Origin: Clostridia bacterium
GTDB taxonomy: Bacteria > Bacillota > Clostridia > Oscillospirales > Acutalibacteraceae
Assembly: GCA_017441385.1 (NCBI GenBank)
Contig: JAFRXY010000028.1
Location: 1 to 43,373, forward strand
Direction of reading: 5' to 3'
DNA length: 43,373 bases
Below the pieces are notes generated by a model. That model saw only the letters and a list, made by a program, of their open reading frames with translations. It had not been told where the DNA came from and did no database searches. Below are positions 1,598 to 15,951 of the stretch, in pieces. Position numbers and translations under genes: made by a program. Numbering within the stretch: the first letter of the stretch is position 1; each line of letters begins with the position of its first letter.

Positions 1598-1635
1598 TTG
1601 CTCCACAATGAATTGATTAAAAGGTGAGAAAAAGA

Positions 1636-2733
1636 GTGATTGTTTATTATTCAATTCTTGCGTATCTGCTTTATTTAGGTGTAATGAAGAAATTATGCGA
1701 AAAGTATGAAAAATCCGACAGTGTTATTGTTGCGATAGCTGTTTTGATTTTGTTTGTTTTCGCTGCCATGAGAAGCGTTAATGTGGGCGCTGACACACGT
1801 CAGTATTGTGGGCATTTTAGTGAATTGGCCCAAACTCCGTGGTTGAAACTTCCGGCATATGAAAGCCGGCGTTACGGAACTTTGGAATTAGGCTACAAGG
1901 TCATGAACAAGTTGCTTGCTGTATTCCGGGAACCGCAGACAATCACAATTGTCAACAGCATTTTGCAGATCGGTCTGATAGCGATTGTCATTTACAGGCA
2001 ATCCAAAGATAAATGGCTCAGCATTTTTTTATATTTTTCTTTTTGCTTTTATCAGACTGCGTTAAATCTGACGCCCAGCTCCTACGTTTCCTATTTCATG
2101 TTTTTGACGTTCCCTTTTATCAAAGATAAGAAGCTGATCAAATTTTTGATTATGATCGGTATTGGAATGCTGTTTCATACTTCGGCAGTTTTCTTTCTGC
2201 CTTTGTATTTCTTATCAAAAGTGAAATTCAATAAAAAGACTTTTACGGTGGGATGTATCGTTTCCGTCTTGATATTTTTATTCTATTCTGTATTTATACA
2301 AATTATCACTGCTATTCTTCCCCAAAAGTACATTCACTATATTGACAATACAAAAGAAAGAACAGGAAATACCATAGAACTGCTTGTTTTGGTTGTACAG
2401 CTTGTTGCGTTGGTGTTTTGCTATATGCAGCTTGAAAAAGATAAAAAATCATCTGTCATTCAAGAAAACAATCTGGTAGTATGGATGCTGTTTTACGAAA
2501 TTATCCTTTATCTTCTTTCTATGATTGCTCCTATGTTCCAAAGAGGCGCGTTTTTGTTTTCGCCCTATTTTATCATTATCATTCCCAATCTTATCAGTAA
2601 AATCAGCGATGAGAGACGCAGACAGTGGGTCACGGTCGGAATGACCGTGTACGGTACCGCACTGTATATTCTCAGGGTCAGTATTAACAATGTCGGTACC
2701 ACGATGCCTTATGAATTTTTCTTTAATCGGTAG
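1636..2733 (+). CDS. EpsG/Wzy-like polysaccharide polymerase
   Basis: A multi-pass membrane protein of about 365 residues, with roughly ten hydrophobic segments. Near the N-terminus it has R-S-V-N-V-G-A-D-T-R-Q-Y, which matches the R-x-x-x-V-G-x-D-T-x-x-Y signature of EpsG-family proteins that polymerise exopolysaccharide repeat units at the outer face of the membrane. I chose GTG 1636 as start because an AAGGTGAG ribosome binding site (1621–1628) sits 7 bases upstream; the in-frame GTG at 1624 lies inside that site. It follows the glycosyltransferase gene by 38 bases in the same direction and is probably co-transcribed. The family call is fairly safe; the substrate is unknown. Confidence 0.75.
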   Translation: MIVYYSILAYLLYLGVMKKLCEKYEKSDSVIVAIAVLILFVFAAMRSVNVGADTRQYCGHFSELAQTPWLKLPAYESRRYGTLELGYKVMNKLLAVFREPQTITIVNSILQIGLIAIVIYRQSKDKWLSIFLYFSFCFYQTALNLTPSSYVSYFMFLTFPFIKDKKLIKFLIMIGIGMLFHTSAVFFLPLYFLSKVKFNKKTFTVGCIVSVLIFLFYSVFIQIITAILPQKYIHYIDNTKERTGNTIELLVLVVQLVALVFCYMQLEKDKKSSVIQENNLVVWMLFYEIILYLLSMIAPMFQRGAFLFSPYFIIIIPNLISKISDERRRQWVTVGMTVYGTALYILRVSINNVGTTMPYEFFFNR

Positions 2734-2748
2734 ATTTATACAGTCTGA

Positions 2749-2880
2749 CGGCATGCGGAATACTTTTTGCCCCGCTATTATTATGATGTTCATGCGGACG
2801 GATGCAGAAAGATTGTTTCAGATTTAAAAGCAGAGACTCCGAAAAAATATTTCTTGATTCAGTATTATTGTGAGGGGTAG
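2749..2880 (+). pseudogene. Remnant of a lost gene (3' end only)
   Basis: Between the polymerase stop and the next gene one frame is open for 43 codons, from just after a TGA at 2746 to TAG at 2878–2880. It reads like real protein (AEYFLPRYYYDVHADG, then KKYFLIQYYCEG) with a coding-like composition, but it has no start codon or ribosome binding site. The likeliest reading is the C-terminal stub of a gene deleted from the polysaccharide cluster. I do not recognise the family. Confidence 0.45.
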
Positions 2881-2889
2881 AACTCCATT

Positions 2890-4047
2890 ATGAAAAAGGT
2901 CGCAATAGTCACTCTTTATCATAACAATCATAACTTCGGGGGGCAGTTGCAGGCTTACGCTTTGCAGCATGTTGTAGCTTCCTACGGCTATATTTGCGAT
3001 ATAGTTGATTATAACCCACAAAATAAGTATAAAAAATTAAAAACTCTCACTGTCGGTACGCTACTTGTACGTTTTTATCATAAAACTCAGATGAAGATTC
3101 ATCAGTGGGTGAATCCTCAGATGAAGACGGATTTCCGAAAAAAAGCCGATCTTTTCCGACAGTTTATGAACTCCATTCCACATACCGAGGAGATTACTAA
3201 CGATCGCATTTCAGCCATAACCTCTGATTATGATTGCTGGATAGCAGGCAGTGATCAGATTTGGAATCCGGAAGCATTTACAGGCGGTTCATTATACTTG
3301 CTTGAGGGAGTGCTCGGGAAAAAAGTATCCTACGCTGCCAGCAGCATGAACGCAAAATTCACGCTTGCTCAGGCACATGTGCTTCGAAAGTCCCTCGATA
3401 GTTTCAGTGACATTTCCGTCAGAGAAGAAGGTCTTGAGAAGACAATTTCTGAAATATCCGGAAAGCCCGTTACTACAGTACTTGACCCCACTTTGTTACT
3501 TGGTGCGGGGGACTGGGATAAAGTGACCGTTCAACCTCAGATGACAGAAAAATATGCTTTTGTCTATGTGATAGGCGTATCCACTGATGTTCGAAGAAGA
3601 ATTTCTGACTATTGCAAAAAGAATCGCTTTCAAATGGTAATTGTTCCTCACGCACAGGGGTGGTACAAAGCGGCGGATGAGAGGTATTTCGATGTTCAGG
3701 CAGCGGCAATAGGCCCTGCTGAATGGTTAGGCTATATCAAAAATGCGGAAATCATTTTTACAGATTCTTTTCACGGCACGATTTTTTCGGTTAATTATCA
3801 TAAGAAGTTTGTGTCATTTGAAAACCTTTCGGGAGACGCCGAAAAGGACAGCGGATTAAGAAAGTACAGTATTCTCCGCCGATTAGGGTTAGCCGACAGA
3901 TGTGTTCCTTATTCATATGATTTGAATTCGGAAATACTTGCAGAAGATATTGATTACGCAAGTGTTGACCAAAGGCTGCAAGAACTCAGAAAACATTCAG
4001 AGAGCTATCTTGCAAAGGCGTTGGGACTTGCCGAGGATAAGGACTGA
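2890..4047 (+). CDS. Polysaccharide pyruvyl transferase family protein
   Basis: A 385-residue protein starting MKKVAIVTLYHNNHNFGGQL, the characteristic N-terminus of the polysaccharide pyruvyl transferase family (CsaB/WcaK-like), which includes enzymes that put ketal-linked pyruvate on surface glycans using phosphoenolpyruvate. Other family marks are the W-I-A-G-S-D-Q-I-W-N-P segment near residue 120 and the T-D-S-F-H-G-T-I-F segment near residue 295. It sits four bases upstream of an F420-hydrogenase-beta-like Fe-S protein gene; this pairing is common in clostridial polysaccharide clusters, where the exact reaction of neither partner is well established. A GAGGGG ribosome binding site lies 13 bases before the ATG. 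Confidence 0.8.
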   Translation: MKKVAIVTLYHNNHNFGGQLQAYALQHVVASYGYICDIVDYNPQNKYKKLKTLTVGTLLVRFYHKTQMKIHQWVNPQMKTDFRKKADLFRQFMNSIPHTEEITNDRISAITSDYDCWIAGSDQIWNPEAFTGGSLYLLEGVLGKKVSYAASSMNAKFTLAQAHVLRKSLDSFSDISVREEGLEKTISEISGKPVTTVLDPTLLLGAGDWDKVTVQPQMTEKYAFVYVIGVSTDVRRRISDYCKKNRFQMVIVPHAQGWYKAADERYFDVQAAAIGPAEWLGYIKNAEIIFTDSFHGTIFSVNYHKKFVSFENLSGDAEKDSGLRKYSILRRLGLADRCVPYSYDLNSEILAEDIDYASVDQRLQELRKHSESYLAKALGLAEDKD

Positions 4048-4051
4048 TTGA

Positions 4052-5227
4052 ATGACAGTAAAAATTATTGAATCGAACAAAACGTGCACGGGGTGTTTTG
4101 CCTGTTATAATACATGCCCTAAATCCGCGATAAAAATGGAGCTGATCGACGGGTTTTACAAGCCTGTTATCAGTCAAACCGCTTGTGTTTCGTGTGGAAT
4201 GTGTGTGTCGGTTTGTCCTCAGAACAGTGATGTGAGGATTACAAACTATCAAACCAAGGCCTATGCGTGCAAGAACAATGATAATGCCGTAAGAGTAAAA
4301 AGTTCGTCCGGCGGAGTTTTTACAGTACTGTCAGAAAGCGTTCTGTCGGAAGGCGGCGTTGTGTACGGAGTCGCCTTTGACAAACAATTCCTGACACACC
4401 ATATAAGAGTGGATAGTATGATCGACATGGTGAAATTGCGCCGTTCAAAATACCTACAGTCGTATGTCGGAGATGTATTCAAAAACATTAAGAGGGATAT
4501 GACGGAAGGAAGAAAGGTGTTGTTTTCCGGAACGCCATGTCAGTGCGCAGGGCTTAACGCTTATCTTGAAGGAAACCGAGAGAATCTGATTATTGTGGAA
4601 GTATTGTGCCATGGGGTGCCAAGTCCTGTTATTTGGAAAAACTATCTGGATTACAGAGTAAAAAAGTCCAAGAATAGTTCCCGGGTGGAGAATTGCATGT
4701 TCCGTACTAAAGACGCCTGTCGCAGCGCGAGCTGGAACAATTCATATATGTATATCAAGCTGGATAGTGAGGATTACATAGTTAACAGCGATTCCGATCC
4801 CTTTATGATGCTGTTTGCGCGTTCCGACATTATTCTGAATGACTCCTGCTATGAATGTCGGTACAGAGAACTTGTCAACCGTGGATTTGCCGATATTTCT
4901 CTATGTGATTTCTGGAATATCGACAGAATTGCTCCTTCATTTAATGATGGCGGCGGGATATCATTAATGATGATACATTCCCAAAGTGGAGAGAACTTGG
5001 CAGAAGAATGCATAAAAACTATGGCAGTTGCTGAGGTGGAGCCTCAAAGAGCGTTGCTATTAAATTCATCTTCCCATCAGCCAAAACAAATCAATCAAAA
5101 TAGTAAGGTCAGATCATCGCTTATCCGGTTTCCGGCAAAATTCGGACGCATTTATTTCACCTATTTGCCTGTTATTTACGGCAGAAAAGTGATCGATAAA
5201 ATCAAAAAAATACTCAAGAGGCAATGA
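4052..5227 (+). CDS. F420 hydrogenase beta-like Fe-S protein
   Basis: A 391-residue protein. The N-terminus carries two 4Fe-4S cluster motifs of ferredoxin type, C-T-G-C-F-A-C-Y-N-T-C-P and C-V-S-C-G-M-C-V-S-V-C-P. The rest matches the coenzyme F420 hydrogenase/dehydrogenase beta subunit N- and C-terminal domains, including S-S-G-G-V-F near residue 86, F-S-G-T-P-C-Q-C-A-G-L near residue 158 and a second cysteine group (C-Y-E-C-R-Y) near residue 270. In polysaccharide clusters such proteins accompany pyruvyl transferase-like genes and are assumed to be cytoplasmic redox enzymes, not true hydrogenase subunits. Its stop overlaps the flippase start by four bases (ATGA), indicating translational coupling. 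Confidence 0.85.
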   Translation: MTVKIIESNKTCTGCFACYNTCPKSAIKMELIDGFYKPVISQTACVSCGMCVSVCPQNSDVRITNYQTKAYACKNNDNAVRVKSSSGGVFTVLSESVLSEGGVVYGVAFDKQFLTHHIRVDSMIDMVKLRRSKYLQSYVGDVFKNIKRDMTEGRKVLFSGTPCQCAGLNAYLEGNRENLIIVEVLCHGVPSPVIWKNYLDYRVKKSKNSSRVENCMFRTKDACRSASWNNSYMYIKLDSEDYIVNSDSDPFMMLFARSDIILNDSCYECRYRELVNRGFADISLCDFWNIDRIAPSFNDGGGISLMMIHSQSGENLAEECIKTMAVAEVEPQRALLLNSSSHQPKQINQNSKVRSSLIRFPAKFGRIYFTYLPVIYGRKVIDKIKKILKRQ

Positions 5228-6651
5228 ACGTGAACAAAAAATCTGTTATCAGAAATATTTCGTACAGCTTCTTAGCCAATATTCTTTCCTTATTTCTTGG
5301 AATACTGGCCACATTCCTGTTCCCTAAGTTCCTGAATGTGGCAGGGTACGGTTATTATCAGCTGTATATTTTTTACACAGGTTACCTTATAATGACAGCA
5401 CTTGGAATGGCCGACGGCGTTCAGCTCAGAATTGCCGGAAATGAGTATAATAAACTTGACTTTGATGATCAAAGTTCTTTATTCTGGCTTTCGTCAATGA
5501 TTCAGGTTGCGATATATGCCGTTCTTCTTTTAGCGGCTGCCGTATTGGTTCCCGATGCAAATAAAAGATTCACACTCATCTGCGCTTGCTTGGTCGGATT
5601 CGTCACTCACCCCCGGTATTATCTTTACACGCTCCTTCAAGGCGTGAACCGATTGAAGGAATATGCTCATATTATCATTACCGAGCGCTCCATTTCGATT
5701 GTAGTGAGTGTCATTGCGCTGCTGCTGGGCTGCCGGGATTTCAGGCTGATGATCATTTTCGACGTGATCGGAAGAATCCTCTCCTTTATGCTTGCCATGT
5801 CATTCTGCAAGGAGATTGTGTTCCGCAGGCCTGTGATTGACAAGAGCATAGTTACAAAGTCCATTTCCTATATCCTTTCGGGCGTGATGATTCTCTTTGC
5901 CACGCAGACAAGCAGCATCGTCATTGGCGTAAACCGTTTCGGTTTTGAACGTCAGTGGGGAATAGAGGAATTCGGCAAGATTTCCCTCGCCATTGCGCTT
6001 TCCAATATGGTGCTGAGGTGCGTCAATTCCATCTCCGTGGTCATGTTCCCGACCCTGCGGAATGTCGAGCCAAAGAAGCTGCCGGAGATTTACAAAAAAA
6101 TCAACGCAATGCTTATGACGACTATTTTCATCTTCATGTGCCTTTTCAAGCCCGGATGTTATATAATAGGCTGGTGGCTTCCCCAGTATGCGGGCAGCCT
6201 GAAATATTCTATTCTGCTGCTGCCGATATGCATTTACGAGTGCAAGTATTCGCTGCTCATCAATACCAACCTGAAAACACTGAATAAAGAAAAAATTATC
6301 GGCGCCATCAACGCGATTTCGGTGGCGGTTTCGCTCGTCACCGCTGTCGTAAGCATTGCTTTGCTGAAAAATATGGAGCTTGCCATCGTTGGAATTCTGG
6401 TGGCCTTAAGCGTCAGAAGCATGATCGGAGAATGGTTTATCGGAAGATTATTCCATATCAGTGTTATGGAAAATATTGTCTCTGAATTTATTCTTTCCGT
6501 CATGTTTATTTTCTGTATGTATTACAACAGCGGCGTTATTTACTATTTACTGTATACTGCGGTCGTGTGCGGTTATATGTATCTGGAAAAAAACGAACTT
6601 CTGGCAATTATTGGAAAATTCAACCAAATCAGCAGCAAGAAGCCGATCTGA
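5224..6651 (+). CDS. Wzx-type polysaccharide flippase
   Basis: A 475-residue, very hydrophobic protein with about twelve to fourteen predicted membrane spans and the N-terminal pattern of the MOP/PST transporter superfamily (S-V-I-R-N-I-S-Y-S-F, then G-I-L-A-T-F-L-F-P-K-F). Such proteins flip lipid-linked oligosaccharide repeat units across the cytoplasmic membrane, upstream of the polymerase encoded at 1636. It overlaps the preceding gene by four bases and is the last gene of the polysaccharide cluster. No clear terminator follows, but a new promoter starts at 6711. Confidence 0.8.
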   Translation: MNVNKKSVIRNISYSFLANILSLFLGILATFLFPKFLNVAGYGYYQLYIFYTGYLIMTALGMADGVQLRIAGNEYNKLDFDDQSSLFWLSSMIQVAIYAVLLLAAAVLVPDANKRFTLICACLVGFVTHPRYYLYTLLQGVNRLKEYAHIIITERSISIVVSVIALLLGCRDFRLMIIFDVIGRILSFMLAMSFCKEIVFRRPVIDKSIVTKSISYILSGVMILFATQTSSIVIGVNRFGFERQWGIEEFGKISLAIALSNMVLRCVNSISVVMFPTLRNVEPKKLPEIYKKINAMLMTTIFIFMCLFKPGCYIIGWWLPQYAGSLKYSILLLPICIYECKYSLLINTNLKTLNKEKIIGAINAISVAVSLVTAVVSIALLKNMELAIVGILVALSVRSMIGEWFIGRLFHISVMENIVSEFILSVMFIFCMYYNSGVIYYLLYTAVVCGYMYLEKNELLAIIGKFNQISSKKPI

Positions 6652-6710: not shown

Positions 6711-6739
6711 TTGATTTATTATAGCGTTTGTGATAAAAT
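6711..6739 (+). promoter_or_regulatory. Sigma-A promoter of the secreted-protein gene
   Basis: TTGATT (6711–6716), a 17-base spacer and TAAAAT (6734–6739). Transcription would begin near 6746, 35 bases before the TTG start at 6781. This separates the secreted-protein/peptide unit from the polysaccharide cluster. Confidence 0.7.
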
Positions 6740-6780
6740 ACAAATGCAATAATATATATTTTTTTCAAGGAGTGACCGTT

Positions 6781-9700
6781 TTGAAAAAGCAAATTTGTAA
6801 GCCGATATGGAAACGCTGTTTCACGTTTGCGCTTTCAGCAGCACTGGTCATGCAGATGATCGCGACTCCGTCGCTGACTGCATTTGCCGCTGCTGATGAT
6901 GCCGCAGCGATCAGCGCGTCCGATCTGAAACCGGTAGAATCCGTTTCCTCTGCACCTGTGGAAGAAGCGGAATCTGTCGAAACTCCGGCAGCGGAGGAAC
7001 CGAAAGCCGAAGAACCTAAAGTCGAGGAGCCGAAAGCCGAGGAAGTTGTCGTCCCCGAACTGAAAGCCCCCCCCGCAGAGGCAGAAAAAGCCGATGCGGT
7101 GAGCTATGTTGACGAGAACGGAAATACGGCAACTGTTTCCGACTACAATGTTGTGGACGAATCCACCACTTCCATGAGCGGGAGTGAGAAGGATGGCTGG
7201 TATGTTGTCAACGCGAATGTGACGGTAAGCAAAAGCATTGTTGTCACCGGAAACGTCAAGCTGATTCTCTGTGACGGCTATACCCTGACCGCGAATTATG
7301 GCATCGGCGTTTCTACCGGTAATTCTCTTACAGTCTATGTCCAGTCCGAAGGTACCGGCGCACTCACGGCAAAAGCGTACAAGAAGAACTCGAATACCTA
7401 TGCCGCCATAGGCGGGTATGGAAAATCCAAAGGCGCTACACGTCGGGCCGGTACGATTACGATTAACGGCGGTAATATCAAAGCGACCTCCTCGACAAGT
7501 TATAACTGTGCGGCTATTGGCGGTCTTCAGAGTGACGCAGCTGATAAAATAACGATCAATGGTGGTATCGTTTCCGCGTCCGTTGAAGGCTATTCACAAT
7601 CTCTTTATGCCGCTATTGGCTATGGCTACGGTGGTGACAATTCCAAAGCCGGTGAAGTTTTTATCAACGGCGGTCAGGTCACAGCTACAGGACCCTCCGG
7701 TAAAGGCGTCGGCATCGGCGCAAAGGACGGCATTACCCTCAGCCACAGCCATTACACTGATTTTATCAATGCGTCCGGCTATAACCCTGCTCCCACGCTG
7801 AGCAAGGACTTCATGATCAAGGACACTTCCACACAGGCTACCAGCAGCAATGCAGGCGGTAAAACCATCGTCCCTCGCTACAAGGTTGTGTTCTATGATA
7901 CCGACGGTACAACCGTTCAGACGACCGTCTATGTTGCCGGCGGCAAGAAGGTTACCGAGCTTCCGGCCTATACCCCCGCGGAAGGATTTGTCTTCAAGGG
8001 CTGGAAGGACAAGACGACCGGCGAGGCATTTACGACTGATGAAATAATCAAGGGCGATAGAGAGATTGTCGCCGACTGCGAAAAGGACGCCTTCACCGTC
8101 ACATTCTACAATTGGGACGAAACCGTGATCTCGACTGTCGATGTCATTAATGGACAGCGTCCCCAGTTCCCTGATATGAGCGAATGCCAGCCGAAGGAAG
8201 GCTACAATTTCTCTGAGGCTTGGTTCGACAAGGCCACCGGCGAGGAGTTCGGGGAAGAGGAAGTGATCACCTCCGACAGAGAACTGATTGCGGGTCTCAA
8301 GGCGAAATCCTACCGCATCGACTACGATCTCGGCGAAGGCGGCACAGCGGAGAATCCTGTCAACTACACCATCGAAACCGAAACATTTACCCTCAATAAC
8401 CCCACATGGGAAGGCTACAAATTTATCGGCTGGACAGGCGCCGGCTATGACGAACCTACCATGGAGATTACCATTGCAAAGGGCACCACAGGCGATATGA
8501 AGTTCACGGCGCACTGGGAAACAGTCAAATGCACAATTACATTTGACATCGACTCGGGTTGTGAAATCAAAGTCCTTGCCATTGATCCTGAAACCGAAGG
8601 CGACGATCAGAGTACACAATCCGGTCGGTACATTGAAGACGGTGAAAAAGTGGATTACGGCACTGTGCTTGAAGTTCTGGTGACAGTGAAACCCGGTCGC
8701 TGGATTAGCGACGGTTCAAATTATAGCGGGGATATTAAAGTTACAGAAGATACGACCATTTGCATAGTGACTGCTCCGTATGTTTACTCACTGGAAGTCA
8801 TTCATGAACACGGCGCTGAACCCACCTTCAGTTGTGCAGATCCCAACAATCTTCACTACGGCGACGAGGTTACAGTTACTCCCGGTGAGGCGGAAGAAGG
8901 CTATGAATTCATCGGCTTTTATCGCACCAATGGCGTGAAGCTGTATTATGACGAAGCCAATCCGGACTATACCTTTACTGTTACAGGTGATACGACCATC
9001 GAAGCCCGTTATCAGAAGGTCGGCAATACCGTTACATTCATTTCCAGCGGTCAGATTGTCAAATCCGAAACCTACGAAACCTTTACAGAAAATGATTTCC
9101 CGGCTGATCCTGCCGCTCCCACCGGTTACAAGTTCAGCGGCTGGAGTAAGACAGCAGAGCAGATCAATGAAGCTCTTCAGACCGGAAGTGTCACCGTGGA
9201 AGCCCAGTTTGAAGCGGTGCAGGAAAGCTTTACCGTTTCAATTTACAACGGCGAGGCAGAGGAACCCGAGACTGTTGAATGCGAACAGAGCAAAATTATC
9301 ACCAGAATTGCTGCTAAAGTGAACGGTAAAAACTTCGCTTACTGGACGCTTGATGATGACATTATCTCCTACAATACCACTGTATCCTATATTGCGACTC
9401 AGGACGGTGTGCTGAGAGCGGTTTACTCAACCGAAGCAGTCGAGGCCATCGGCACAGCTACTCTTAAAACTGCCAAATACAATGTTGAGGCCAGAAAGCT
9501 CGTCATCAATGTCTATCTTGCACTTCCCAACGACAACTGCAAAATTGTGAAGGCCGGATTGATAGCGGCTTCTGCCGAAGGAGATTTTGATCCCGAAAAT
9601 CAGCAGCTGACCGATGAGCTTAGTGGCACCGGCGTGTATAAGAAGTCACTGGCGTCAGCTGTCGGCAAGTCTGTGCCTGTCGATTATACATGGACCAAGA

Positions 9701-10182
9701 CAAACGTCGCCCCCGGCGACAAATGGTATGTGTGTGCCCGTCTTGAATATACCGATGAAAACAATAATCCTCAGGTGATTTACGGAGATATGTTTACCTT
9801 TATTGCCGGTAACGACTATGATTCTTCCGAAAAGGGCACCGCGACAATCCGCTCGATATCCTATAATGAAGACACAAAGGTCGCAACATTCAAGGCTTAT
9901 CTCACCGTTCCGGAGAATGCCGTCATTGTCAAGGCTGGTTTGGTAGCGGCTTCGTCAACATCTGAAAAATTCAATTCCGAAACCGATGTTCTGACTTCCT
10001 CCAACGCGGATTACGCCAAATCCTTGGCTTCGGCTGTGGGCAAGTCCGCTCCTGTCGACTACACTTGGAATAAGACGAACGTTGAAGTGGATTGGTATGC
10101 ACGCGCATGGCTGGTCTACGACCTTGAGGGAACCCGTCACACCGTTTACGGCGACCTTGAACTCTTAAAGGTCGGAAAGTAA
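6781..10182 (+). CDS. Large secreted InlB-repeat protein
   Basis: A 1,133-residue exported protein. The start is TTG 6781, eight bases after AAGGAG (6767–6772); an in-frame ATG at 6730 overlaps the promoter and is not used. Residues 1–36 form a Sec signal peptide (K-K, hydrophobic core, cleavage near A-F-A/A). Next come a Pro/Glu/Ala-rich linker (about 55–105) and a Gly/Asn-rich region with repeated I-T-I-N-G-G strands suggesting a beta-helix (about 140–340). From about 365 to 880 there are Listeria-Bacteroides (InlB B-type) repeats with the recurring G-[YF]-x-F-x-G-W core. Two copies of an approximately 115-residue C-terminal module follow (from residues 891 and 1019). There is no LPxTG motif, transmembrane tail or SLH domain, so anchoring is unexplained. 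It lies 34 bases before a tiny peptide gene and is probably co-transcribed with it. Confidence 0.85.
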   Translation: MKKQICKPIWKRCFTFALSAALVMQMIATPSLTAFAAADDAAAISASDLKPVESVSSAPVEEAESVETPAAEEPKAEEPKVEEPKAEEVVVPELKAPPAEAEKADAVSYVDENGNTATVSDYNVVDESTTSMSGSEKDGWYVVNANVTVSKSIVVTGNVKLILCDGYTLTANYGIGVSTGNSLTVYVQSEGTGALTAKAYKKNSNTYAAIGGYGKSKGATRRAGTITINGGNIKATSSTSYNCAAIGGLQSDAADKITINGGIVSASVEGYSQSLYAAIGYGYGGDNSKAGEVFINGGQVTATGPSGKGVGIGAKDGITLSHSHYTDFINASGYNPAPTLSKDFMIKDTSTQATSSNAGGKTIVPRYKVVFYDTDGTTVQTTVYVAGGKKVTELPAYTPAEGFVFKGWKDKTTGEAFTTDEIIKGDREIVADCEKDAFTVTFYNWDETVISTVDVINGQRPQFPDMSECQPKEGYNFSEAWFDKATGEEFGEEEVITSDRELIAGLKAKSYRIDYDLGEGGTAENPVNYTIETETFTLNNPTWEGYKFIGWTGAGYDEPTMEITIAKGTTGDMKFTAHWETVKCTITFDIDSGCEIKVLAIDPETEGDDQSTQSGRYIEDGEKVDYGTVLEVLVTVKPGRWISDGSNYSGDIKVTEDTTICIVTAPYVYSLEVIHEHGAEPTFSCADPNNLHYGDEVTVTPGEAEEGYEFIGFYRTNGVKLYYDEANPDYTFTVTGDTTIEARYQKVGNTVTFISSGQIVKSETYETFTENDFPADPAAPTGYKFSGWSKTAEQINEALQTGSVTVEAQFEAVQESFTVSIYNGEAEEPETVECEQSKIITRIAAKVNGKNFAYWTLDDDIISYNTTVSYIATQDGVLRAVYSTEAVEAIGTATLKTAKYNVEARKLVINVYLALPNDNCKIVKAGLIAASAEGDFDPENQQLTDELSGTGVYKKSLASAVGKSVPVDYTWTKTNVAPGDKWYVCARLEYTDENNNPQVIYGDMFTFIAGNDYDSSEKGTATIRSISYNEDTKVATFKAYLTVPENAVIVKAGLVAASSTSEKFNSETDVLTSSNADYAKSLASAVGKSAPVDYTWNKTNVEVDWYARAWLVYDLEGTRHTVYGDLELLKVGK

Positions 10183-10216
10183 ACAGACGCTCATCAACAC
10201 GAAAGAGGTGAAAGAA

Positions 10217-10324
10217 ATGGCTTTGAAATATGAACAGCTTGAAATGGAAGTCATCGTGTTTGATGTGGAAGATGTGATTACCACATCCGGCGAGGAAGTT
10301 ATTCCCGGCATTGAAACCGACTGA
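10217..10324 (+). CDS. 35-residue putative precursor peptide
   Basis: A 35-codon gene with AGAGGTG (10204–10210) six bases before ATG 10217. The peptide begins MALKYEQLEMEVIVF, continues with an acidic D-V-E-D-V-I-T-T-S-G motif and ends EEVIPGIETD. It has no signal peptide, is strongly acidic, and the Thr-Thr-Ser-Gly stretch could accept a modification. Position is the main functional clue: it follows the secreted protein and precedes an HPr-kinase-like ATPase, a PqqD-like protein and a nucleotidyltransferase, the order expected for a RiPP precursor with tailoring enzymes. I recall similar short peptides with an E-[DN]-V-I-x-T-S core from clostridial genomes, but know of no assigned product. 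Coding status is well supported by the ribosome binding site and spacing; its role as a modified precursor is inference. Confidence 0.75.
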   Translation: MALKYEQLEMEVIVFDVEDVITTSGEEVIPGIETD

Positions 10325-10368
10325 TGACATTCCGACATTATTTCTTTTGACACACACCATCAGATAAA

Positions 10369-10404
10369 ACAAACGGCAGGCTGCTTCGGTTGTCTGCCGT
10401 TTGT
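10369..10404 (+). terminator. Hairpin between peptide gene and enzyme genes
   Basis: A perfect 11-bp stem (acaaacggcag at 10369–10379, ctgccgtttgt at 10394–10404) closes a 14-base loop. Only a weak T-rich tail follows (tataaaataac), so it would act as a partial terminator or an RNA-stabilising end. That would give more peptide mRNA than enzyme mRNA, a usual arrangement in precursor-plus-enzyme operons. Confidence 0.65.
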
Positions 10405-10451
10405 TATAAAATAACAAAACCGGGGCAAAGAAAATGTAAAGGAGCAGGCGC

Positions 10452-11186
10452 ATGATAACGCGTACTTACCGGTTTGCCGGCAAAATCATAGAGATATCCT
10501 CCGTATATCATTATGTTCATCAATATTGCGAAGAATATGCTGCAACGGGTACGCCGGATTTTTCGGTAATCACCGATGAGGAAGATATCGACTATGAACG
10601 GAAGAAATCACGGCTGGAAGATATTGCCTTCGGCCGTGAAATGCGGGAATATTCCTCTCCGTATCTTGAATCGCTTGCGGTTTACCGAAAGATTGCCGAA
10701 AGAATGCCGGCATATGATACCGTTCTTTTTCACGGCTCGGTTGTCGCAGTAGACGGCGAGGGCTATCTCTTTACCGCAAAGAGCGGTACAGGAAAGTCCA
10801 CCCATGCGCAATTATGGGTAGATTATTTGGGAGATCGTGCAAAAATAATCAATGACGATAAGCCGCTGATTCGGATTGACGGAAGCACCGTCACGGCATT
10901 CGGAACGCCCTATAACGGCAAGCACCGGCGGGGGTGCGCTCTTTGTGTTCCGCTCCGAACCATCTGTGCGCTGGAGCAGGCGGCGGACAATCACATTGAG
11001 CGGGTAGAAAAGAATGCACTGTATCCGCTGCTGGTACAGCAGGTATACCGGCCTTCGGATCCGGTAATGCTTGCCAGAACGCTTACTCTCCTTGACTGCA
11101 TGACGGAACATGTGAGTCTGTACCGCTTAGGCTGCAATAGGGATGTGGAGGCGGCGATCGTTTCCTATCAGGGAATGAAAGGATAG
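10452..11186 (+). CDS. HPr-kinase-like P-loop ATPase
   Basis: A 244-residue protein whose central part resembles the HPr kinase/phosphorylase fold: F-H-G-S-V-V-A-V, then a Walker A loop G-T-G-K-S at residues 112–116 and an acidic N-D-D-K-P segment at about 133–137 where HprK has its Walker B/catalytic region. It lacks the N-terminal domain of true HprK and its gene is not near ptsH. Short HprK-like kinases of this type occur in lasso-peptide clusters; PadeK of the paeninodin cluster phosphorylates its precursor. By analogy this enzyme may phosphorylate the 35-residue peptide. AAAGGAG (10438–10444) precedes the ATG by seven bases, and the PqqD-like gene follows after six bases. Confidence 0.75.
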   Translation: MITRTYRFAGKIIEISSVYHYVHQYCEEYAATGTPDFSVITDEEDIDYERKKSRLEDIAFGREMREYSSPYLESLAVYRKIAERMPAYDTVLFHGSVVAVDGEGYLFTAKSGTGKSTHAQLWVDYLGDRAKIINDDKPLIRIDGSTVTAFGTPYNGKHRRGCALCVPLRTICALEQAADNHIERVEKNALYPLLVQQVYRPSDPVMLARTLTLLDCMTEHVSLYRLGCNRDVEAAIVSYQGMKG

Positions 11187-11192
11187 AATACC

Positions 11193-11453
11193 ATGAAACT
11201 GAATTCAAATTTTATTGTTCATCAGACAGATAAAGATACCGTTATCGTACCGACCGCTTCCGCGGCTTTTTCGGGCGTGGTAAAAGGAAATAAGACGCTC
11301 GGCAGCATTGTAAAGCTGCTGCAAAACGACGTGACGGAAGAAACTATTATCGCAGAAATGAAGAAAATTTTCGACGCGCCGGAGGGGATGATTGAACGCG
11401 ACGTGCGTAACGCCATTGGCGAGCTTCGCAAAATCGGAGCTATTGAAGAATAA
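11193..11453 (+). CDS. PqqD-like peptide-binding protein
   Basis: An 86-residue protein with PqqD-family character: an N-terminal two-strand section (K-L-N-S-N-F-I-V-H, then D-T-V-I-V-P), a small-residue stretch (S-G-V-V-K-G-N-K-T-L-G-S-I) and a winged-helix-like remainder (L-L-Q-N-D-V-T-E-E-T-I, then R-D-V-R-N-A-I-G-E-L-R-K-I-G-A-I). PqqD domains act as RiPP recognition elements that hold the leader peptide for modifying enzymes. It sits directly between the HprK-like ATPase and the nucleotidyltransferase, consistent with delivering the 35-residue peptide to either. The family is clear at low sequence similarity; the partner is inferred. Confidence 0.75.
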   Translation: MKLNSNFIVHQTDKDTVIVPTASAAFSGVVKGNKTLGSIVKLLQNDVTEETIIAEMKKIFDAPEGMIERDVRNAIGELRKIGAIEE

Positions 11454-11511
11454 TAGCGGCACTCCCATTCATTTGTGAATCTGAATTATAGAAGATTGGA
11501 GTGGAAGGATT

Positions 11512-12621
11512 GTGGCAGTTCTGACGGAAGAAGAATATATCAGTACAGCAAAAGAAGTGTCATATCTGGCGGCATGCGCTGTAAATGGGGAAAAACCGGA
11601 CAAAGAAAGAGTTGCACAGATGAATCCTGATCATCTCTTTTACGTTGCCAAGCGTCATCAGCTTGCGGCCGTCACCGCGATTGCCTTGGAAAGCGCAGGC
11701 GTCAAAATTGCCGAATTTACACAGGCCAAGGGGAAGGCAATACGAAAAAACGCAGCGCTGGACATTGACAGGGCCGCGCTGGCGGAACGGCTGGAAGCGG
11801 AGCAGATCTGGTATGTGCCGCTCAAAGGAGCTGTTCTAGCGGACTATTATCCGCAATTCGGCATGCGGGAGATGTCGGACAACGATATTCTGATTGACGC
11901 GGGTCGTGCCGGAGATGTAAAGGAAATAATGAAGTCCATCGGCTTTGCGGTGGAGCAATTCGGCAAAGGAATTCACGACGAATATTACAAACAGCCGGTC
12001 AGTCATTTTGAAATGCACCGCGCTCTTTTCTTTTCGTATGATGATCAATTGTATGAATATTACAAGGATGTTGCATCGCGGCTGAAACAGGAGGACGGCA
12101 CTTCGGCGCGTTTTTTCAGCAATGAGGATTTTTATATCTACCTCATAGCGCATGAATACAAGCATTTTTCAGGAGCGGGAACCGGGCTGCGCTCCCTGCT
12201 GGACATTTATGTGTTCTGGCGGAAATTCGGGGAAGAACTGGACAAAAGTTATTTAGAGAAAGAATTCGAACGGCTTGGCATTGCGGATTTCGAAAAGAAA
12301 AACCGAAGCCTTGCGCTGCGGCTTTTTTCCGGAGAAGAACTTTCGGAGCAGGAAGAAGAACTGCTGCGTTATTTTGTTCTGTCAGGAGTATTCGGAAACA
12401 CACAGAATCAGATTGCGAAGCGCGGGCGCTGGCGTTATGTTCTGGAAAATATATTTGTGCCCTACCGCCGAATGGTGACGGAGTATCCGTTTCTGCGCAG
12501 ATTGCCCTTCCTGCTGCCGTTTTGTTGGATTTTGTGGTTAAAAAGGCAGTTGGTTAAAAACCGAAAACGAATTTTTCTTAAGCTAAGAGTCATCTTCAAT
12601 CTCAGAAAAAAGAAAAAATGA
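11512..12621 (+). CDS. NTP_transf_5-like nucleotidyltransferase
   Basis: A 369-residue protein with the marks of the uncharacterised nucleotidyltransferase family (PF14907 type): P-L-K-G-A-V-L-A-D-Y-Y near residue 103, then R-E-M-S-D-N-D-I-L-I-D with the metal-binding pair D123/D125, followed by a conserved H-F-E-M-H-R segment and a mainly helical C-terminal half ending in a basic tail (R-K-K-K-K). Members occur next to PqqD and HprK-like genes in peptide-modification clusters, where they may add a nucleotide to the peptide or a partner; the reaction here is unknown. The start is GTG 11512, with GGAG (11498–11501) ten bases upstream. No signal peptide is present. Confidence 0.75.
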   Translation: MAVLTEEEYISTAKEVSYLAACAVNGEKPDKERVAQMNPDHLFYVAKRHQLAAVTAIALESAGVKIAEFTQAKGKAIRKNAALDIDRAALAERLEAEQIWYVPLKGAVLADYYPQFGMREMSDNDILIDAGRAGDVKEIMKSIGFAVEQFGKGIHDEYYKQPVSHFEMHRALFFSYDDQLYEYYKDVASRLKQEDGTSARFFSNEDFYIYLIAHEYKHFSGAGTGLRSLLDIYVFWRKFGEELDKSYLEKEFERLGIADFEKKNRSLALRLFSGEELSEQEEELLRYFVLSGVFGNTQNQIAKRGRWRYVLENIFVPYRRMVTEYPFLRRLPFLLPFCWILWLKRQLVKNRKRIFLKLRVIFNLRKKKK

Positions 12622-12652
12622 AATTTTTTTCTAAAAAACCGTTACCTTTTCA

Positions 12653-12694
12653 TTGACCTCAGCGTGTTCTATTATGTAAGGATGCGCTGAGGTC
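12653..12694 (+). promoter_or_regulatory. 10-bp inverted repeat around a putative promoter
   Basis: A perfect inverted repeat (gacctcagcg at 12655–12664, cgctgaggtc at 12685–12694) encloses 20 bases. A TTGACC (12653–12658) overlaps the left arm and AT-rich TATTATGTA lies in the centre, although the spacing to any -10 is shorter than standard. It is 28 bases before the first gene of the sigma-factor operon and could be an operator, a non-standard promoter or a terminator for the upstream operon. Confidence 0.45.
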
Positions 12695-12722
12695 TTTGGC
12701 AATTCCGGAAGGAGGACGTAAA

Positions 12723-14015
12723 ATGAAATTTTTCTCAATTATTTCGCAAGCAGACATTTCAAACCGTGTCAGCCATTGGTTTGGCAAAGGCGAGGGGGAA
12801 GGGAATGCCCACCGGCGCACCTTCCTGCGGGTGGCGGCGGTCGCGCTGGCGGCGGGGATTCTATTGGCCTCCCCGCAGGTGAAGGCCGTGCTCTGTTCGG
12901 CCGGCGAATGGCTGGGAAATCTCGCGGGCGGTCATCCGGAAAGGTTTTCCGACGGTTTTGAGATCGTGGATTACGGGTACGATTATGTGGCGTTGCGCAA
13001 GACGGTCAGCCCTCTGCATCAGACCCTTGCGGTGGGTGATTTTGAATTCACCTTTCAGGACCTGCTCTGTCACGATTATCTTTCGGGAGAGTATACATAC
13101 GAATCAAACACACTGGCCGTGCCGGTGAGAGTGGCATTCAAGGGTGACAAAGAAACCTACGGAGCATACATGCCGCCTTACGATATGAAATTCAATCTGG
13201 CCGGGTATAGGGAAAACAAAAAGGTGATCGAGCTTTCCTTTACCTATCAGGGGCTGTTTCACGAAGTCGGCGACGAGATGTATCCCGTCATGGACTGCTT
13301 CACACAGTATTATCCCACCAAATTCATCAACGGAAAGCCCTCGCCGACCAATCAGTATCTTACGGTGTATTACGGAAGAATCGTTTACATGGACACTGAT
13401 TTGCTGGTGAAAAACTATAAGCAGTACTTGCAGGCAATCTACGACGCGAACGAACTGTTTTACGGACATGAGGATTACGGCCCTACAGGGTATTATTTCG
13501 ACTTTTATTCTGACAGAACGGAAGATGACGCGGAAGAAACGGATAGTCTGGCCAACTGGAACAACGGAACCAAAGAGCTTTATCAGCAGGGGATTGATGA
13601 ATGTGACCGCATGAGCGATGCTGATAGGAAGGAATTAAAAGAGCAGTTCGACGACTCCCTTGCCTTTGCGCTTTCTCCCGACGGCTGGGGATATTATGAG
13701 CCCGGTATGGAAGGCTTGGGAGAATACAAAATGATTGCAGCCTTATCTCCCGACAGATATGAGATCACCACAGCGGAGCTTTCCACCTATACCGCGACGG
13801 GATATAAGATTGTCAAGACGCGCTCATATAATATAAAGGACACGGTTTACGACAGCTTTGTCAATCGGTTTGTGGTCAAATGGAAGGATATGCAGAAAAC
13901 GGAATACCGTGTGGTCAACAGGGACTATTTGGACCGTTTGAAGCGGGGAAACCCCGAAGCGGCCGGGGAACTCAGCGAGTATACGCCGGTGGAATTCCGT
14001 GAAATCGACGATTGA
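12723..14015 (+). CDS. Membrane-anchored paralogue of the anti-sigma protein
   Basis: A 430-residue protein. The start is ATG 12723, six bases after AAGGAGGA (12709–12716). A short basic N-terminus with R-R-T-F-L-R (residues 31–36) leads into one hydrophobic segment (about 36–58), so it is anchored or exported; the R-R-x-F-L pattern resembles a Tat motif but also suits a simple stop-transfer anchor. The outer part is clearly homologous to the protein at 14533: both have V-G-D-F-E-F or I-G-D-F-E-I, Y-G-[AG]-Y-M-P and F-I-N-G-K-P-[ST]-P. It lacks the longer cytoplasmic N-terminus of that protein, so it may be a sensor or decoy partner and not itself a sigma binder. I do not recognise a named outer domain. 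Confidence 0.7.
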   Translation: MKFFSIISQADISNRVSHWFGKGEGEGNAHRRTFLRVAAVALAAGILLASPQVKAVLCSAGEWLGNLAGGHPERFSDGFEIVDYGYDYVALRKTVSPLHQTLAVGDFEFTFQDLLCHDYLSGEYTYESNTLAVPVRVAFKGDKETYGAYMPPYDMKFNLAGYRENKKVIELSFTYQGLFHEVGDEMYPVMDCFTQYYPTKFINGKPSPTNQYLTVYYGRIVYMDTDLLVKNYKQYLQAIYDANELFYGHEDYGPTGYYFDFYSDRTEDDAEETDSLANWNNGTKELYQQGIDECDRMSDADRKELKEQFDDSLAFALSPDGWGYYEPGMEGLGEYKMIAALSPDRYEITTAELSTYTATGYKIVKTRSYNIKDTVYDSFVNRFVVKWKDMQKTEYRVVNRDYLDRLKRGNPEAAGELSEYTPVEFREIDD

Positions 14016-14042
14016 TTGACAGGCAAGGAGAATGTGAATGAG

Positions 14043-14540
14043 ATGACGAATCAGGAAGTAATCGAGCAATACGCCGATCTGGTGCATTATCTGGCGCTGA
14101 ACCGGACGAGCCAGCCGTCGGACGCGGACGACGTGTTTCAGGAAGTCTTTTTGAGATACATACAGAAAAGCCCGAAATTCCGGGACGAGGAGCACGGCAA
14201 GGCATGGTTCATCAAGGTGACGGTGAATGTCTGCAACAGCCTTTTCCGCGAACAGCAGAGGCGCATGCAGAATGAGCAGGAAATCGAAACGGCGGAGGAC
14301 GTTCCGTCGGACGAGGATTTTGCGGCCTCGCTCGACGGGAAGGCATCCTTTTCGGAGCTGCTTTCCAGGCTGAAGCCGCGATACCGTGAAGTATTGCTGC
14401 TGCGGTTTGACTGCGGCTACCCGATCAAGGTCATCGCCAGACTGACAGGCGAAAATGAGGGAACGGTCAATATGCTGCTCATGAGGGGAAAGAAGCAGCT
14501 CAAAGATTTGATGGAGAAGGGAGACGATCAGCATGAGTGA
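14043..14540 (+). CDS. ECF-type RNA polymerase sigma factor
   Basis: A 165-residue sigma-70 family protein of the extracytoplasmic function type. Region 2 contains D-A-D-D-V-F-Q-E-V-F-L-R-Y and W-F-I-K-V-T-V-N-V-C. Region 4 contains L-K-P-R-Y-R-E-V-L-L-L-R-F and a helix-turn-helix (Y-P-I-K-V-I-A-R-L-T, then E-G-T-V-N-M-L-L-M-R-G). The start is ATG 14043, 12 bases after AAGGAG (14025–14030); an in-frame TTG at 14016 precedes the ribosome binding site. The gene overlaps the next by eight bases, the usual coupling of an ECF sigma factor with its anti-sigma factor. It directs RNA polymerase to a stress regulon, probably concerning the envelope. Confidence 0.9.
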   Translation: MTNQEVIEQYADLVHYLALNRTSQPSDADDVFQEVFLRYIQKSPKFRDEEHGKAWFIKVTVNVCNSLFREQQRRMQNEQEIETAEDVPSDEDFAASLDGKASFSELLSRLKPRYREVLLLRFDCGYPIKVIARLTGENEGTVNMLLMRGKKQLKDLMEKGDDQHE

Positions 14541-15951
14541 GCGTAAAATCATTGATTTTGCAAAGGAAAAGGAAAGACTTCTTTCTGAAAGAAACGGTCA
14601 GGACGATTCCGACCAGGCCATCCGGCCGGTTGATCTGGCGCTAAAGGATTATCACGCGCCGGAGGAGCTGAAACGCAGGACGCTGGCGGCGATGGACAAA
14701 ATGGCGGAGGAAAAGAGAGAACGCGACCGCCGGCGCGGCAGGGTGGTCAAGCGGGTTATCGCAACGGCGGCGATCATCGCGCTGGTGCTGGCGTGTACGC
14801 CGCTCGGCGGAATGGTGGTCAGCGCGGCGGAGTCATTCTTGGGAAGGATTTTCGGCACCTATACCTCCCGCGTCATCGACGTCAGCGGGGAATGCTACAA
14901 AGAGCCGGTGGCGGTGGATTACGGCAACGGGGAGGCCGCCGTGCTGCTGAAAATCGGCAATCTGAATCAGTACGTCAATATCGGCGATTTCGAGATTGAA
15001 TTCGGCAAGGTCATGGTGTGTCAGAATGTCGGACTGGACGATAATGCTGACGGTATGGATGAAAAAGGAGAGAGCAGCTCCTATGACGGCATTTACGAAA
15101 GCAATCTCCTGATGCCTGTCCGGGTCACCCACTGCGGCCCCAAAACCCTGTACGGCGGCTATATGCCGGGATTCCAGCTTCAATTCACCGTGGCGGGCTA
15201 CAAGGACGGTCAAAAGGCTGTGGAATTTGAAATGTCCGGTCAGGGGCTATACAGCGAGGATGGCGACGAGATCTACCCTGTGAAGTTACGCGAATTCGGC
15301 GCTTACAATGTGTATCCGACGCACTTCATCAACGGAAAGCCCACGCCCAAGAACAGCTTTCTGTTCAAATATACCGGCGGGCTGTCCTATTTCAATTCCG
15401 ACCTGCTGGCGCAGCATTATGAGGAATATCTTGCGTCGGAAGAGCAGAGGACGGATTACATCTGGGGCAATAACCACTGGTATCAGGAGGAAAAAAAGAA
15501 CCGCGAGAAGGATTCCGCCGCCCGGAAGCCTTTGAGCGACAAAGAACGGGAGAACATCAGGAAGAAATGGGATAAAATCCGTCTGAGTGGCGGATGGTAT
15601 TATGACGGAGAAAGTGAGCAATTTTTTTCCGCTTATGACGTGGTGATGGCCATTCAGCCCGACCAATTTGTCGTGACATCCGTGACGCTGCTGACGGACA
15701 AAATCTCGGGCTACACCGTCTCGAAAAAGGACGATCCCGAACAGCCTTCCACCGGCTACGGCATTTACAATGAACGCTGCTATGTCATCTGGAAGAACCC
15801 GCAGGACGTGGAGTACCATATTCTCAACAAAGACTACCAGGATGATCTGAGCGACGCCGACCTGCTGAATGAGGCCGATCAGGTTCAATCATGGGAAGCC
15901 GTTCCATTTTACGATTCCGCCGACAGCAGCGGCCGTAAAAAGCATTTTTAG
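14533..15951 (+). CDS. Probable anti-sigma factor, single-pass membrane protein
   Basis: A 472-residue protein with a charged cytoplasmic N-terminus (residues 1–70, E/K/R-rich helices), one membrane helix (about 71–97) and a large outer domain. Its overlap with the sigma gene, the cytoplasm–membrane–outside layout and a cytoplasmic part long enough to bind a sigma factor make an anti-sigma role likely. The outer domain is paralogous to that at 12723 (shared Y-G-G-Y-M-P, V-A-G-Y and F-I-N-G-K-P-T-P) and would sense the signal. There is no zinc-binding H-x3-C-x2-C motif of the ZAS class. Its stop codon coincides with the left end of a repeat element. Confidence 0.7.
   Translation: MSERKIIDFAKEKERLLSERNGQDDSDQAIRPVDLALKDYHAPEELKRRTLAAMDKMAEEKRERDRRRGRVVKRVIATAAIIALVLACTPLGGMVVSAAESFLGRIFGTYTSRVIDVSGECYKEPVAVDYGNGEAAVLLKIGNLNQYVNIGDFEIEFGKVMVCQNVGLDDNADGMDEKGESSSYDGIYESNLLMPVRVTHCGPKTLYGGYMPGFQLQFTVAGYKDGQKAVEFEMSGQGLYSEDGDEIYPVKLREFGAYNVYPTHFINGKPTPKNSFLFKYTGGLSYFNSDLLAQHYEEYLASEEQRTDYIWGNNHWYQEEKKNREKDSAARKPLSDKERENIRKKWDKIRLSGGWYYDGESEQFFSAYDVVMAIQPDQFVVTSVTLLTDKISGYTVSKKDDPEQPSTGYGIYNERCYVIWKNPQDVEYHILNKDYQDDLSDADLLNEADQVQSWEAVPFYDSADSSGRKKHF

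Follow-up and report, generated by a model that had tools for sequence, protein, structure and literature searches.

We describe here a small peptide gene and its neighbours in a 43,373-nt stretch of DNA, hereafter the window, which is the whole of contig JAFRXY010000028.1 (G000:C90 in our numbering) in the 2.66-Mb, 110-contig assembly GCA_017441385.1 of a Clostridia bacterium. The peptide gene stands between the gene for a very large secreted protein and three genes of kinds that also accompany lasso peptides, which are ribosomally synthesized and post-translationally modified peptides (RiPPs). The parts of the locus are as follows.

6781..10182 (+), frame open from 6730: large secreted protein of about 1130-1150 aa, with a signal-peptide-like N-terminus, Flg_new / Flg_new_2 / InlB B-repeats and a C-terminal region containing '..ARAWLVYDLEGTRHTVYGDL..'
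10204..10210 (+): ribosome-binding site AGAGGTG of the peptide gene, read from the sequence and kept in the ortholog
10217-10324 (+): small peptide gene, 35 aa, MALKYEQLEMEVIVFDVEDVITTSGEEVIPGIETD, with AGAGGTG just 5' of its ATG
10217..10288 (+): peptide leader of 24 codons, with YxxLxM (YxxPxM in most relatives), F and EDVITTS, as delimited by alignments of 68 unique peptides and of 32 peptides
10289..10324 (+): variable acidic tail GEEVIPGIETD and stop codon
10367..10405 (+): strong hairpin between peptide and kinase genes, folding z -3.4, kept in the ortholog G016
10452-11186 (+): HprK-like kinase, with H94, K115, D135 and D136 as the His-Lys-Asp-Asp set of lasso-peptide kinases
11193-11453 (+): PqqD/B1-type RiPP recognition element (RRE), over the Pfam cut-off (PF05402)
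11512-12621 (+): NTP_transf_5 nucleotidyltransferase-like protein, 3.5e-42

A first-pass annotation of the window had pointed to a 35-codon gene with a good ribosome-binding site, a hairpin 3' of it, a giant secreted protein 34 nt ahead of it and HprK-like, PqqD and NTP_transf_5 genes downstream. All of this holds: AGAGGTG precedes the ATG, the spacing from the secreted-protein frame to the peptide gene is 34 nt, the hairpin is supported by folding and kept in the nearest ortholog, and the downstream genes are identified by Pfam scans, the kinase by fold and motif. The hairpin was not listed by a simple terminator scan, though folding supports it; it is probably the end of a secreted-protein/peptide transcript. 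An alternative GTG start at 10208 would give a peptide of 38 aa, but it overlaps the ribosome-binding site.

Sequence comparison indicates that the small open reading frame belongs to a real, widespread gene family. Using a profile of 19 peptides at E ≤ 0.01, we found relatives in 75 of 297 genomes from one bacterial family, each with a completeness of 90% or more, and in 36 of its 107 genera, where about three of the 297 genomes would be expected by chance from the E-value and at least five of the 75 contributed members to the profile itself. The short frame is thus conserved between related genomes, a point that the first-pass annotation had left to be checked, and it is the leader that stays constant: about 24 residues of the form YxxPxM...F..EDVITxS, followed by a tail that varies and is acidic in nearly all members. 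The leader of 68 unique peptides, taken from 52 loci, keeps Tyr (65/67), Pro (53/67), Phe (57/68), Asp (66/68) and Ser (67/68), counts that are favoured by the leader profile that selected these peptides; [YF]xxPx(L/M/I/V/F) occurs in 54 of the 68, and Gly directly follows the leader Ser in 31. A lasso peptide would have a YxxPxL leader with Thr(-2), Gly1 and a ring-forming Asp/Glu at position 7-9. The tails of the 66 peptides that could be split by motif are 9 to 77 residues long, 65 of them negative, with Ser or Thr in 48. Neither Pfam nor NCBIfam gave a convincing family for the 32 members scanned, the best weak matches being an NCBIfam thiopeptide precursor model (0.013, three members) and a Pfam entry (0.091, one member).

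The nearest ortholog locus, in G016 (kinase 76% identical), has the secreted protein, peptide, kinase, PqqD, an S26-like peptidase discussed below and NTP_transf_5 in a row, with an adjoining second set of peptide, PqqD and NTP_transf_5 in the opposite orientation. Over 22 leader codons the window and the ortholog differ by five silent and two non-silent changes. The window's own genome holds a second peptide copy on contig 33 (L028, G000:C33:24986-26230), recognised by its leader, with 47% identity; a single-sequence search gives it an E-value of only 0.2. PqqD and NTP_transf_5 genes of its own follow it; no kinase, S26-like or secreted neighbour lies within 16.5 kb. At another locus (L071:6048-6645) four tandem peptide genes, all with a shorter DV(V/I)xTSG leader end, lie 5' of a PqqD gene.

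The kinase of the window matches Pfam Hpr_kinase_C at 0.004 only, under the curated cut-off. Its AlphaFold model (pLDDT 95.7) finds HPr kinase/phosphatase structures as best Foldseek matches (1.3e-6, with a modest TM score by query of only 0.35), and PEP carboxykinases come next at about 1e-5. In an alignment of 19 sequences H94, K115 and D136 are invariant and D135 is kept in at least 90%; all four are invariant in a 17-sequence set. Taken together, the model and the alignment indicate an HprK-like fold with the lasso-type His-Lys-Asp-Asp motif, a residue set described for lasso kinases in the available parts of two papers (PMC9266682, PMC10368454). Among NCBIfam models, ScmC was the best match of the four kinases scanned (1e-5 to 3e-8). 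An HprK-like protein is thus shared with the SynChlorMet (Scm) and HPr-rel A/B systems, and the SynChlorMet cassette also holds a PqqD-like protein. The present matches differ in scoring about 14 to 33 against these models, far under the curated cut-offs of 125 and 200, and a radical S-adenosylmethionine (SAM) gene was seen here at one locus only, no systematic search having been made. That gene lies between kinase and PqqD at L090:6046-7542, and some members may add a further modification by means of it.

The PqqD family profile has as its best match TbiB1, a solved lasso B1 RRE (7e-12). A further protein of about 155 aa often accompanies the kinase relatives. Three scanned members gave no Pfam match, but Ser, His-Arg and Gly-Asp are invariant in 14 sequences. 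Sequence matches are weak (PDB 0.003; NCBIfam signal peptidase I 2e-6, under the cut-off), and the top Foldseek matches are SipA, SpsB, UmuD and LexA, with a best E of only 2e-3. We read this protein from sequence and model as a putative cytosolic S26-like peptidase; the alignment reveals no evident N-terminal membrane segment. ATP-binding cassette (ABC) exporter genes occur at seven peptide or kinase loci (L004, L041, L042, L090, L091, L095 and L102). The S26-like gene of the window's genome is found on contig 42, next to a gene for a divergent ABC exporter, and both were missed in the first reading of the window because they lie together on that other contig. At L077:6885-8528 a single 548-codon frame carries an S26-like match (G262:C1:80911-81354) and an NTP_transf_5 match, a possible fusion of the two.

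Across the 297 genomes the peptide and these enzymes go together. The kinase (E ≤ 1e-45) was found in 71 of the 75 peptide genomes versus 40 of the 222 others, with an odds ratio of about 80 and a p value of 3e-34 that is inflated by relatedness of the genomes; at genus level it was found in 36/36 peptide genera versus 13/71 others (p 7e-18). Kinase cut-offs of 1e-10, 1e-45 and 1e-70 agree, at 72/3/65/157, 71/4/40/182 and 68/7/25/197 (peptide genomes with and without kinase, then other genomes with and without). PqqD was found in 73 of the peptide genomes versus 64 of the others, and the S26-like protein in 69 versus 56.

A possible objection is that the kinase, PqqD and NTP_transf_5 act elsewhere, on exopolysaccharide or on some other protein, and that the peptide co-occurs with them through shared lifestyle. 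Exopolysaccharide-type genes do lie 5' of the window cluster, a Wzz/AAA_31 gene stands beside L018, and in 40 genomes the kinase was found but no peptide was detected. Against this, besides the odds ratio and the genus counts just given, the leader motif matches YxxPxL, which the available text of one paper reports as the lasso leader motif (PMC10368454), and peptide and kinase are neighbours in 13 of the 40 peptide-family regions that we fetched around high-ranking matches, a sample in which distant members are under-represented and some regions stop at contig ends. We consider this account highly unlikely.

In the remaining 27 of the 40 regions no kinase was seen beside the peptide. We reject on this ground the fixed four-gene set that the first-pass annotation had proposed, and hold instead that the enzymes are common to scattered peptide genes; for the same reason it is unlikely that the peptide frame serves to regulate the kinase operon. 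Among 19 genomes compared, which carry up to ten peptide copies each, 17 had no peptide in the fetched kinase stretch, and a scan for YxxP near these peptide-less kinase loci gave chance-like frames only. Sixteen of the 17 carry a peptide elsewhere at E ≤ 0.01 (14 at E ≤ 1e-4), and the remaining two of the 19 (L006 and L019) have the peptide adjacent to the kinase. The first-pass annotation had allowed that the three downstream genes might occur consistently without such a peptide; this is so locally, but not genome-wide.

Its view that the locus is a RiPP-like system with tailoring proteins of the paeninodin/pseudomycoidin type and without a lasso protease is supported. The protease family PF13471 had no match in the window's genome. 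In the whole set PF13471 was over the cut-off in four of 297 genomes, and weak matches in 39 were rarer in peptide genomes (4/75) than in others (35/222). A scan of 29 window proteins, which did not extend to other parts of the genome, found no lasso cyclase (asparagine-synthetase-like). We reject the lasso peptide itself as a candidate, on the rarity of PF13471 over the cut-off and on tail length. A role of the peptides as toxins or bacteriocins in some lasso-like class of RiPPs is most improbable, too, although RRE, kinase and nucleotidyltransferase do occur in lasso clusters according to the available parts of the literature (PMC9266682, PMC10368454): 293 of the 297 genomes have no lasso leader protease over the cut-off, no cyclase family appears among the scanned window proteins, the tails go down to 9 residues and are acidic in all but one of 66, and a link to secreted enzymes and adhesins, described next, is unusual for bacteriocins.

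The strongest local feature of the peptide genes is one that the first-pass annotation had mentioned as a side remark, the link to a surface protein. In 31 of the 40 regions by script, and in 32 with L088 added by inspection, a frame of 300 aa or more on the same strand ends at most 150 nt upstream of the peptide; the median gap is 22 nt. By a crude rule of our own for signal-like N-termini, which counts membrane anchors too, 27 of these 32 upstream neighbours look signal-bearing, versus 49 of 137 control frames (at least 300 aa, same loci). Neighbours of a similar kind to the 6730-10182 protein of the window are found at other peptide loci also; one of the 32 (L082) is a LytR-CpsA-Psr protein. 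Two further genomes, G319 and G320, have ten peptides each, and 19 of these 20 stand behind a frame of at least 300 aa within 100 nt, 17 of the frames being signal-like. Seven of the 20 have a closely similar tail, GL(I/V)FGG...ESF..LFG/MFS, behind four protein kinds whose bodies are unrelated (three proteins of one kind, two of another and two singles). Of the upstream proteins, three that were scanned have pectinesterase, GDSL-lipase and tyrosine-phosphatase domains and a fourth has none. Six of the seven peptide genes overlap the upstream stop codon by 1 or 4 nt, which suggests translational coupling.

Because most of the sampled peptides are paired with a secreted protein, and because unrelated ones share one type of tail, we think it most likely that the product acts on or with the secreted-protein class, in anchoring, folding or activation; the tail is probably a partner, anchor or maturation factor of the secreted protein made with it. 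One could suppose instead that the peptides are secreted pheromone-like RiPP signals from the same enzymes, and that their position behind secreted genes only co-regulates them. A leader, a variable acidic tail and an exporter would fit such signals, as would many copies per genome with differing tails, but similar tails recurring up to four times per genome behind different secreted proteins offer little signal diversity, and we think this account unlikely.

The tails and the upstream proteins also vary together. Peptides with similar tails tend to follow proteins with similar C-termini (r 0.36, p 4e-4), and mimicry between a tail and its upstream C-terminus has a permutation p of 0.0006 over 34 pairs, a value carried by L087 and L090. 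These two loci have near-matching ends: at L087:6189-7408 (-) the tail and the upstream protein end in ...GWSDWWTPEF and ...GWSDWWTPEY, and at L090:4309-5287 (+) in ..IELPIIPVK and ..SEDVIELPIITV; at these two loci both ends are perhaps substrates. That tail types go with upstream-protein types bears on a further alternative, in which the leader-like frame is a scaffold or carrier for a small molecule, like PqqA or TglA, and the product is something other than the tail. The nearly invariant Ser at the leader end, the variable tail and a nucleotidyltransferase without assigned chemistry would suit a scaffold, but such matching of tails to proteins is needless for a mere carrier, and we rate the scaffold as quite improbable.

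We are left with a reading to which we give about an even chance: the small gene encodes the precursor in a system of RRE-dependent peptide maturation that works for secreted proteins, with tailoring enzymes of lasso type, no lasso protease and scattered precursors. Several observations weigh against it. Eight of the 40 loci, some of them at contig ends, have no large neighbour (they have no upstream frame, a short or distant one or, at L077, the kinase itself), one of the 32 neighbours is a tRNA-dihydrouridine synthase (L085), and the contig 33 copy in the window's own genome sits behind a biotin ligase. Among the 13 kinase-bearing loci, strong labels were given for PqqD at 12 and for the S26-like protein at 10, and for NTP_transf_5 at only seven. 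Genes next to peptides supplied part of the profiles for kinase, PqqD and S26, which tilts the result somewhat towards association; the kinase occurs without a detected peptide in 40 genomes, and it was not found at 1e-45 in four peptide genomes (G001, G013, G031 and G296; three at 1e-10), among which the G013 peptide match is probably false. The tail tracks the upstream body as well (r 0.45), and the leader also tracks the C-terminus (r 0.51); because body and leader correlate too, the pattern in part reflects gene pairs inherited together from a common ancestor. Only L087 and L090 show strong likeness between the two ends, and general tail mimicry of the upstream C-terminus is rejected. Finally, 18 of the 66 tails lack Ser and Thr, so that phosphorylation of the tail is not general.

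We infer the chemistry of peptide modification by analogy with lasso systems. In the available parts of the published accounts, the paeninodin kinase phosphorylates a Ser of its precursor, PsmN, the pseudomycoidin nucleotidyltransferase, puts hexoses onto phospho-Ser, and BsfB1 speeds phosphorylation and aids leader removal (PMC9266682, PMC10368454). By the route that we propose, the secreted protein and the peptide would be translated from one message, and the RRE (PqqD/B1) would grip the leader at YxxPxM/L...F. The kinase would then phosphorylate the peptide; the most likely site is the invariant Ser of 'ITTS', the one hydroxyl shared by nearly all members. NTP_transf_5 may add a sugar or nucleotide to the phosphate, like PsmN, which we take to be a member of the same family, in pseudomycoidin. 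Signal peptidases favour small residues before the cut, and the S26-like enzyme would cut near '..TS|G' in place of the lasso protease B2, a role suggested by position only. The tail would exit through the ABC exporter and, once outside, associate with the Sec-exported protein as its anchor, ligand or maturation factor. Another contig would have to supply the peptidase and an exporter in the window's genome.

A broader version, which we offer tentatively and think somewhat less likely true than false, is that in Clostridia each of many Sec-exported enzymes and adhesins is co-translated with its own peptide, which a shared cytosolic set (RRE, HprK-like kinase, sugar/nucleotide transferase, S26-like leader peptidase and ABC exporter) matures and exports to anchor, activate or tag that protein at the cell surface. 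If true, this would be the equivalent of a C-terminal sorting signal, split off and made as a RiPP.

The system shares with the paeninodin (pade), pseudomycoidin (psm) and Bradymonas (bsf) lasso clusters the H-K-D-D HprK-like kinase, a discrete PqqD-type B1 RRE, a nucleotidyltransferase, an ABC exporter and the YxxPxL leader motif. Unlike them, it has no PF13471 over the cut-off, no cyclase in the scanned window proteins, an S26-like peptidase instead, scattered precursors coupled to secreted proteins, an EDVITxS leader end and short acidic tails. In prochlorosin-type RiPPs one enzyme serves many scattered precursors; a constant leader, a variable core and precursors scattered in one genome are common to both, whereas the enzymes are others and the present precursors are tied to genes of secreted proteins. 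Partnerships of S26 signal peptidases with surface proteins, such as SipW/TasA, resemble our system in an S26B-like Ser/His peptidase and secreted surface proteins; the present peptidase differs in having no evident N-terminal membrane segment and in accompanying an RRE and a kinase.

In the available parts of a rumen lasso survey, HPr kinase, PqqD and nucleotidyltransferase are named beside lasso genes (PMC7533575), as is HPr kinase in those of a RiPP survey of anaerobes (PMC4289311); neither, within those parts, mentions the present peptide. Nor did we find a description of the peptide or of a surface-protein maturation route in the literature searched, which excluded most subscription papers and preprints, and three leader strings were absent from the papers searched. 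RRE-dependent peptide maturation is known; that the present system has a categorically new role has, we believe, a fair chance, and the data suggest a route, so far undescribed, by which surface proteins are made or equipped. Tailoring enzymes of lasso type are known from the production of free peptides; here enzymes of that kind accompany peptides whose genes are paired with those of secreted proteins, as many as ten in a genome and in 36 of 107 genera. Should the pairing prove functional, HprK-like/PqqD/NTP_transf_5 genes found outside any lasso cluster would acquire a role, RiPP biology would gain an S26-like leader peptidase, and the chemistry of NTP_transf_5 would become testable on a defined substrate family.

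Some further observations concern the surroundings of the peptide loci. L084 has tandem secreted proteins with the same C-terminus (1047-4515 and 9150-12720), each with its own identical peptide gene, the first, which was scanned, being a subtilase/leucine-rich-repeat protein; secreted gene and peptide seem to have been duplicated as a unit. Cell-wall genes were seen at three loci: an acyltransferase/GH25 fusion, with an ABC exporter 3' of the kinase, at L042:2845-6377 (-), and LytR-CpsA-Psr genes 5' of the peptide at L082:6358-7425 (-) and 3' of the kinase at L086:8315-9463 (+). In the window itself, positions 62-6651, directly 5' of the secreted protein, hold the exopolysaccharide-type genes (glycosyltransferase, EpsG, pyruvyl transferase, FrhB-like and flippase). 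On the other side, at 12696-15951, a gene for an extracytoplasmic function (ECF)-type sigma factor (14016-14540) lies between two frames without a Pfam match, and the three together are perhaps a surface-stress unit.

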